From: Allosalinactinospora lopnorensis
GTDB taxonomy: Bacteria > Actinomycetota > Actinomycetes > Streptosporangiales > Streptosporangiaceae
DNA: 64,000 nucleotides
Assembly (NCBI RefSeq): GCF_000981225.1
Contig: NZ_LAJC01000018.1
Location: 1 to 64,000, forward strand
Direction: 5' to 3'
A program made the position numbers and the translations under genes. Within the stretch, counting starts at the first letter, position 1, and each line of letters begins with the position of its first letter. Shown here in pieces: positions 2,796 through 5,806 of the stretch. The notes under the pieces are model-generated. The model worked only from the letters and a program-made list of their open reading frames with translations. It made no database searches and was not told where the DNA came from.

Positions 2796-3515
2796 TCACA
2801 CCGCCTTTCCGTCGGCCGGCTCGGTGGCCGCCGCGTCCGCGCGCAGTATCCCCAGGCGCAGCAGATCGCTGCGGCTCGCGGTGATCAGCAGCCGGACGAT
2901 GACCACTGTGATCAGCCCTTCGATGATCGCCAGTGGGATCTGGGTCACCGAGAAGACGGCGCCGAACTTCGCGAACGCGCCGGGAACACCGCTCTGCGCG
3001 TCGGGAAAGGCCAGGGCGAGCTGCAGGCTGGTCACCGTGTACGTGCCCAGGCTGGCCAGTGAGGCGCCGCAGAACACGGCCAGCCCCAGCGAGGTCGTTT
3101 CGGGCAGCGCGCCGGTGAGGGCGCGGACCAGCCGGTAGACGCCGTAGGCGACCCACGGGCCCACGACCGCCATCGAGAAGACGTTGGCGCCGAGCGTGGT
3201 CAGGCCGCCGTGCGCCAGTAACAGGGCTTGGAATAACAGGGTGATCGTGCCGAGGGCCGCCATGACGGGCGGCCGGAACAGGATCGCCCCGAGGCCCACG
3301 CCGGTGGGGTGGGAGCAGCTGCCCGTCACCGACGGGATCTTCAGCGCCGACAGCACGAAGCAGAACGCCCCGGACGCTCCGAGCAGCAGTTTCGCGTCGG
3401 GATTGGCTCGGACGGCCTGTGTCAGGGAGCGGACGCCGTGGATGACGAAGGGGGCGGCAGCGGCGGTCCAGGCGGCCGCGTGCGCAGGGGGAAGGAAACC
3501 CTCGGCGATATGCAT
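2796..3515 (-). CDS. cbiM: Cobalt/nickel ECF transporter substrate-binding subunit CbiM
   Basis: Substrate-specific membrane subunit (S component), 239 residues. The N-terminus [10 protein letters not shown] matches the CbiM/NikM family, where the amino group of Met1 and His2 help bind Co2+ or Ni2+; the [13 protein letters not shown] segment near residue 65 carries another conserved metal-site His. About seven hydrophobic segments follow. It is first in the cbiMNQO operon, directly behind the cobalamin riboswitch, which argues for cobalt, while a Nur-like operator in the promoter argues that nickel also matters. Sequence alone does not separate CbiM from NikM firmly. Confidence 0.92.
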
Positions 3516-3552
3516 GAGTGGGGGACCAACTCTCCAGCACCTCGTGGACGGT

Positions 3553-3755
3553 CGTCGTGTGCCGTGGCCGGTCTCCTGGCTTGCGGGTCTTCGCCCTGAC
3601 GCCTGCCTTCCCAGGGGCCGTCCGGGTGGACGCCTCCCCAGTGGCGTTGCCGCCGACCGCTGCCGTGCGGTAGCGGTAGACGGGGCGCCGGGCTACCCGT
3701 TCACAGTGGCGAGGGCCGCGCCGGTTTCGCGCCGGACTTCCCGATCACCACGGCT
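3553..3755 (-). promoter_or_regulatory. Cobalamin (adenosylcobalamin) riboswitch
   Basis: On the minus strand the leader of cbiM contains the B12 box GCAAGCCAGGAGACCGGCC (about 3563-3584), upstream GCCACTGGGGAGGC (about 3632-3646) with its partner CCCTGGGAAGGC (about 3608-3621), and the 5' elements GGGAAGTCCGG...ACCGG...GCCACTGTGA (about 3707-3742). These are the conserved core pieces of the cobalamin riboswitch in the right order. In this family, binding of the cofactor lowers expression, so the cbiMNQO transporter should be shut down when B12 is plentiful. Confidence 0.95.
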
Positions 3756-3760
3756 CTATG

Positions 3761-3789
3761 ACGGTACGTCCGATGCAAGTCATTTGCAA
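3761..3789 (-). promoter_or_regulatory. Putative promoter of the cbiMNQO operon
   Basis: Reading the minus strand, TTGCAA (3784-3789) is followed after exactly 17 bases by TACCGT (3761-3766), a plausible -35/-10 pair, and the riboswitch begins within about 10 bases of the -10. The -35 hexamer forms half of the Nur-like palindrome listed separately. Inferred from sequence only. Confidence 0.5.
3773..3789. promoter_or_regulatory. Nur-box-like operator over the cbiMNQO promoter
   Basis: The sequence ATGCAA-GTCAT-TTGCAA matches the published Streptomyces Nur box (tTGCaa-N5-ttGCAA) at 11 of 12 specified positions. Nur is a nickel-responsive Fur-family repressor. The site covers the predicted -35 element of the cbiM promoter, where a bound repressor would block RNA polymerase. 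The regulator gene itself is not in the window. Confidence 0.55.
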
Positions 3790-3943: not shown

Positions 3944-4162
3944 GTGTCCTGGCCCGTTGGGGCGGCACCGGTCGCCGTGACAGCGGCGTGCACGGGGTGC
4001 GGAGCCTGCCTGCTCACCTGTCCCGAGCACGCGATCAGGCCGCACGGCCGCCCGCTCGACATCCTCGTCGAGCTGTGCACGGGATGCCTGGAATGCCTGG
4101 AAGTCTGCCCCGCGGACGCCATCGTCATGGTCGACGACCGGGGCACACCGGGCACGCGCTGA
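3944..4162 (+). CDS. Small 2[4Fe-4S] ferredoxin
   Basis: A 72-residue ferredoxin with two CxxCxxCxxxCP clusters, CTGCGACLLTCP (residues 16-27) and CTGCLECLEVCP (47-58), each expected to hold a [4Fe-4S] centre. GTG 3944 is chosen because GGGAGGGAGG sits just before it; the frame is open further upstream but without coding character. It opens the plus-strand cobalamin block, 73 bases before cobH, so it may donate electrons to a corrin-ring enzyme or to cobalt reduction; that role is inference from position. Confidence 0.85.
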   Translation: MSWPVGAAPVAVTAACTGCGACLLTCPEHAIRPHGRPLDILVELCTGCLECLEVCPADAIVMVDDRGTPGTR

Positions 4163-4899: not shown

Positions 4900-5806
4900 A
4901 TGAAACCCCCGCTTCTGCTGGTCGGACATGGAACCCGCGACGAGAAGGGCGTCGCCGACTTCATGTCGTTCGTCGGACGCCTGGAGCGCCGGTTCGACGA
5001 CCGCGAAGTCGCCGGAGGTTCATCGAGCTGTCGCCGCCCCCGCTGACCGACGCCGTCGGCGAGCTGCACGGGAAGGGGCACAGGCGCCTGGTGGCGGTAC
5101 CGATGATGCTGGTCGCGGCGGGGCACGCCAAGGGGGACATCCCGGGCGCCTGGCACGGGAGAAGGAGCGCTACGAGGGGTTCGGCTACGCCTACGGCCGT
5201 CCGCTCGGCCCGCACCCCACGATGCTCCGGCTGCTCGCCGAGCGTCTGGACGGCGTGCTGGACGCCCCCGCCGAGGAGCTGTCCGAGCAGGGGGACACCG
5301 CGGTCCTGCTGGTCGGGCGCGGCTCCACCGATCCCGACGCCAACGCCGAAGTGTGCAAGGCCGCCCGGCTGCTGCAGGAGGGCCACGCCAGGAAACGCGG
5401 AATCGCGTTCGTGGAGGCGGCGTTCATTTCGCTGGCCTGGCCGGGGGTGCCGGAAGGGCTTGAGCGTGTCCGCCGTCTCGGAGCGCGCCGGATCGTGGTG
5501 CTGCCCTACTTCCTCTTCTCCGGCGTGCTGCCGGATCGGGTGGTGGACCAGTCCATGTCGTTCGCCGCCGAGCACGGTGAGCTGGACGTCCGCTGCGCCC
5601 CGGTGATCGGCGACTGCGACGGCCTCGCCGACGTGATCGGCGAACGCTACGAGGAGGCCCTGGCCGGCGACATCCGGATGAACTGCGACACCTGCGTCTA
5701 CCGTATCGCCATGCCCGGATTCGAGGACAAGGTCGGGGCGCCCCAGACCCCGCATCACCATCCTGATGACCCGACGCACGGGCACGGCCACGGGCACGGG
5801 CATTGA
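4900..5806 (+). CDS. cbiX: Sirohydrochlorin chelatase CbiX-type, broken by two frameshifts
   Basis: Inserts Co2+ (or another metal) into sirohydrochlorin. The full product would be 302 residues: the N-terminus has LLVGHGTRDEKG with the metal-binding His at residue 10, a middle part has VAVPMMLVAAGHAKGDIPGA, and a second half begins LLVGRGSTDPDAN, matching the long two-repeat class. Two breaks, near 5023-5029 (GGAGG before TTCATCGAG) and near 5150-5154 (GGCGCC before TGGCACGG), each look like one missing base. The C-terminus is His-rich (HHHP, then HGHGHGHGH), a probable metal store. Likely a real gene with sequencing deletions; less likely a pseudogene. Confidence 0.85.

Follow-up and report, generated by a model that had tools for sequence, protein, structure and literature searches.

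The cbiMNQO operon of Allosalinactinospora lopnorensis raises the question of whether its expression answers to one signal or to two. The initial annotation of this locus proposed joint control of the operon by a Nur-like operator over the promoter and a cobalamin riboswitch in the leader. We followed up this proposal in the 64-kb stretch of DNA analysed here (the window), in the genome from which it comes and in other genomes of the same family. On the sequence evidence set out below, we give dual control of this kind slightly better than even chances.

The operon lies on the minus strand, downstream of the riboswitch, and includes cbiM (2796–3515; TIGR00123, 255 bits, cut-off 184), cbiN (2361–2792; TIGR01165, 113.5 bits, cut-off 104.9), cbiQ (1602–2348; TIGR02454, 152 bits, cut-off 112) and cbiO (745–1590, start codon unsettled; TIGR01166, 259 bits, cut-off 212). 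All four genes exceed the NCBIfam curated cut-offs, and judged by these families the transporter is of the CbiN-bearing cobalt type. A ferredoxin-like gene with Fer4 Pfam hits (3944–4162, plus strand) is divergent from cbiM, shares its intergenic region and heads a group of corrin-synthesis genes; the gene that follows it matches the precorrin-8X methylmutase family, with scores below the curated cut-offs. Further along, a cbiX-like gene (4900–5806) appears to shift frame at about 5019 and 5150, through assembly indels or because it is a pseudogene, and a fragment of it gave no family match in a profile search.

The cobalamin riboswitch aptamer was found at 3549–3767 on the minus strand. The match to Rfam RF00174 spans model positions 1–189 of 189 and scores 56.9 bits (gathering score 31.5). 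The 5' strand of its P1 helix, GCCGTGG, lies at 3754–3748 and is complementary to 3561–3567. When 20 cbiM loci of the family were searched, 18 had this riboswitch above the Rfam threshold, the exceptions being the leaders of L109 and L111, both from g31. No terminator-like element was found in the cbiM leader, and therefore control at translation is likelier than attenuation; the riboswitch probably acts at that level. The folding of the leader was uninformative (z -1.26).

Upstream of the aptamer we identified a single putative promoter, with the -35 hexamer TTGCAA at 3789–3784, a spacer of 17 nt and the -10 hexamer TACCGT at 3766–3761, all on the minus strand; P1 begins 6 nt past the -10. 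A generic sigma-70 scan did not call this promoter. The arrangement is largely kept in cbiM leaders of the same family, which share a -35 of the form TTGC-NA, the 17-base spacer (18 bases in two loci), a -10 of the form TAC--T at the same distance, and the distance to P1. It is also kept in genera g31 and g47, in neither of which nur was found.

The -35 forms the left half of a 17-bp near-palindrome, ATGCAAGTCATTTGCAA, at 3773–3789, which differs at one position from TTGCAA-N5-TTGCAA and reads TTGCAAATGACTTGCAT on the minus strand, the coding strand of cbiM. Both elements described in the initial annotation, a palindrome over the -35 and a complete B12 riboswitch behind it, were thus confirmed. 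The site is the only match to TTGCAA-N5-TTGCAA with at most two mismatches in the 64-kb window; 0.17 such matches are expected in the shuffled window, and 16 of 100 shuffles held at least one. Genome-wide, the Streptomyces Nur consensus at up to two mismatches was found 14 times, against 43 for a reversed control pattern. Since such sites are no commoner than the control, the consensus alone is uninformative for the site at 3773–3789, and we dropped it as the sole yardstick; it also misses, by three mismatches, the box TTGCGAATAGTTCGCGA elsewhere in the same genome that is described below. The other sites within one mismatch of this consensus in the genome (contigs C6, C7 and C44) had no recognised metal gene alongside.

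Control by nickel calls for a Nur protein, and the genome encodes four members of the FUR family. One has znu genes as neighbours, two are next to catalase/katG genes, and a fourth adjoins a YgfZ-like gene. For the fourth, the best match among solved structures is 3EYY (1.9e-29; the next is 1.5e-10), which is the Nur of Streptomyces coelicolor (PMC7055735), where nur is likewise co-located with YgfZ according to a survey of Frankia (PMC4531530). The gene assumed in the initial annotation is therefore present as an orthologue, but its sequence is not intact in the assembly: nur (L004:1370–1806, contig C56) lies in two frames that meet at L004:1501. Both pieces are 86–89% identical to the Nur of g7. 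The residue aligned to His72 of Nur, which we take to be a ligand of the nickel site, is leucine in this genome (H72L) and histidine in 20 of 20 aligned relatives. A mistake in the assembly may account for the indel, because the cbiX-like gene of the window also looks frame-broken; H72L is less easily explained in this way. A search for nickel superoxide dismutase (PF09055) gave no match in the genome, and as the control was also silent this result shows no absence.

In order to define the box that Nur would read in this family, we combined a pattern search over 30 same-family genomes with a search for nikA. A family-specific box, TTGCRAA-N3-TTYGCAA (palindromes of the type TTGCAAAYNRTTCGCAA), recurs near the nikA start in 13 nur-positive relatives. 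At E ≤ 1e-50, nikA is absent from the window genome, from both g7 genomes and from all nur-less genomes, and one further genome (G043) has distant matches only, with 32–33% identity. Exactly the four nur-positive genomes without nikA (the window genome, G006, G071 and G043) carry an orthologous methyltransferase gene behind a box of the same type. In the window genome, which lacks nikABCDE, this box is TTGCGAATAGTTCGCGA, near-perfect with respect to the family box. The SAM methyltransferase gene behind it adjoins, on the opposite strand, a nicotianamine synthase (NAS) gene (PF03059, 173 bits), together with genes for two ABC ATPases, an MFS protein, an SBP5 protein and a permease. We regard this NAS locus, which spans L246:5218–13427 (C2:138217–146426), as a candidate locus for nickelophore synthesis and nickel import. 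All 17 genomes with nur have either nikA or the NAS-linked methyltransferase, and the 13 without nur, g31 and g47 among them, have neither. This pattern of co-occurrence, together with the box's resemblance to the published one, leads us to infer that Nur reads the family box.

These searches bear on two further points of the initial annotation. Other Nur boxes, to be looked for at nikA and at sodF/sodN, were found at nikA in relatives and at the NAS locus in the window genome, but none at sodF was convincing in the 30 genomes. The suggestion that one transporter serves both nickel enzymes and corrin synthesis was not supported: the transporter is of the cobalt type with CbiN, and the separate candidate locus for nickel import has a Nur box of its own. 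Two more boxes were seen in relatives. An exact TTGCAACCAATTTGCAA lies just 5' of a gene for a metal-binding protein that looks to be of the ZnuA type, followed by an ABC ATPase gene (L163, G071:C2:191427), and a Nur-like box, TTGCGAATACTTTGCAA, lies at the start of an operon for an OppC/NikC-type permease and an ATPase (L225, G021:C1:916295); nikA is present in that genome as well.

We built a scoring matrix from the nikA and NAS-locus boxes only, so that no cbiM site was ever in training. In leave-one-out scoring the training boxes reached 17.5–31.8. The candidate Nur operator at 3773–3789 (TTGCAAA-TGA-CTTGCAT on the minus strand; it differs from the family box TTGCRAANNNTTYGCAA at two positions) scores 23.6, inside this range and highest of all cbiM boxes. 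The second-best site in the window scores 9.8, and no site reached 12 in 308 kb of unselected DNA from the family.

The main alternative is that Nur plays no part, that the palindrome consists of a conserved -35 of slightly unusual sequence (TTGCRA) and a spacer that matches by chance, and that cbiMNQO obeys the B12 riboswitch alone. That the site was only a conserved -35 was also our first view, from a few aligned relatives, and we dropped it as the favourite once the nikA boxes had yielded a family matrix. The promoter does account for the left half of the operator, because the -35 persists in the nur-less genera g31 and g47, and for this reason we held the left half fixed when calculating how often a right half would arise by chance. 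A right half as good as that of the window site then has a P of about 3e-4. The same-place sites in the Nocardiopsis (g9) leaders score 17.0–18.6 (right-half P 0.002–0.005), with two named species in agreement, and those in both g7 leaders 13.3 and 16.4 (P 0.02 and 0.009). These low values of P argue against a chance spacer match.

The palindrome was expected in close relatives, and it is there in part: Nocardiopsis (g9) and the two g7 genomes have a weaker form, g22 has a site displaced by 17 bp upstream, and g19 and g44 have none. In the g22 leaders the promoter site is poor, and a site scoring 18.2 or 16.1 lies 17 bp upstream of it. These two loci (L103 and L106) have, some 287 bp upstream of cbiM, a second copy of the -35 motif CTATTGCGAA 17 bp upstream of the first, which places the Nur-like site next to the promoter and not across it; perhaps the site stems from a duplication of this motif. 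By the matrix, the nur-positive g19 (7.4) and g44 (-1.1) have no box at the cbiM promoter, and their lack of the right half favours the plain -35. Among more distant nur-positive genomes, g50, g61, g39 and g67 also have no promoter box (best leader scores at most 11.7). In nur-less leaders the maximum is 7.3, with no box. Boxes scoring 13–24 therefore occur at 9 of 11 close nur-positive cbiM loci versus none of nine nur-less loci (Fisher P 3e-4, for loci that are related to each other). By genus the counts are four of six versus none of two, a difference that is not significant, and few of the clades are independent.

The compared Streptomyces cbiM leaders have the riboswitch and no box at the promoter, which, with the failure of the Streptomyces consensus at two mismatches to outnumber its control in the window genome, also agrees with a plain -35. 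Some Streptomyces loci (L064, L025, L027, L044, L052 and L069) carry TTGCATATTA(A/G)TTGCA(A/G) some 380 bp upstream of cbiM. The L064 box adjoins a divergent gene that matches NikA families best among the curated ones, with scores short of their cut-offs. Weighing the missing right halves against the right-half probabilities, we consider control by the riboswitch alone unlikely, though a serious contender.

A second alternative is that the operator is a relic, bound by Nur in an ancestor, while nur is now decaying in the window strain and the riboswitch acts alone. The broken frame of nur, its unique H72L and the loss of nikABCDE from this genome would all fit such a history. Against decay stand the 86–89% identity of both nur pieces to the g7 protein, the near-perfect box still present at the NAS locus and a cbiM box that has the top score of all, and the apparently frame-broken cbiX makes assembly indels plausible. 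We judge a relic to be improbable.

Boxes of the Zur type have the form TGAAAATGATTTTCA. With FUR-family genes beside znu and catalase/katG in the same genome, Zur or a catalase-linked Fur might be imagined to use the site at 3773–3789, but this is very improbable, since the site fits the nikA/NAS-locus box and not the Zur type, and the box is missing at cbiM in the nur-less genomes examined.

In the favoured reading, with Nur at the promoter and the riboswitch behind it, cbiMNQO would be transcribed from the single promoter TTGCAA-17-TACCGT, and the 5' end of the transcript would coincide with P1 or lie only a few bases from it. In the window genome, g7 and Nocardiopsis g9, the spacer beside the -35 would supply the second half of the operator, and in g22 the shifted site would take this role. 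Nickel-loaded Nur lying over the -35 would block initiation, and cobalamin would act later, shutting the riboswitch once transcription has begun, probably at the level of translation. Full expression of the importer would require both the absence of nickel-loaded Nur and low B12. The likely purpose would be to close a nickel side entrance when nickel is ample and not to run a shared supply line of nickel and cobalt; we read the control in this way because the transporter is of the CbiN-bearing cobalt type and the separate candidate nickel-import locus has its own Nur box. The broader picture is of a cobalt importer gated in several genera of the family by a nickel repressor together with a B12 riboswitch. 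The operator would be formed around the -35 and would be lacking in nur-less genera, and the cell would treat the importer as a leak for nickel that has to be shut. In our estimate, this picture has an even chance of being right.

Nur, its box, the B12 riboswitch and the CbiMNQO transporter are each of a known kind. In the open-licence literature searched, we found no report of Nur acting on cbiMNQO. The Nur regulon of S. coelicolor includes nikABCDE and sodF, with the box tTGCaa-N5-ttGCAA (PMC3919588, PMC7055735). The system proposed here resembles it in having a FUR-family nickel repressor, a 17-bp palindrome over the promoter and an orthologue of the regulator next to YgfZ (PMC4531530), but the predicted target is cbiMNQO, the box is TTGCRAA-N3-TTYGCAA and none was found at sodF. 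Riboswitch-controlled cbiMNQO operons of actinobacteria, in Streptomyces and other relatives, have the same riboswitch (RF00174), operon and leader layout, and the Streptomyces leaders compared differ in lacking the promoter box. The nrdABS operon of S. coelicolor is controlled by the NrdR repressor and a B12 riboswitch. There, too, a protein repressor at the promoter and a cobalamin riboswitch share one transcript; unlike the metal sensor predicted here on a metal importer, the repressor of nrdABS senses nucleotides, and its target is a reductase operon.

Cells must import cobalt against a background of nickel. If the proposed control is true, one importer would be closed by two signals, the end product B12 and the competing metal nickel, which would make a simple and testable gene-control design for metal selectivity.
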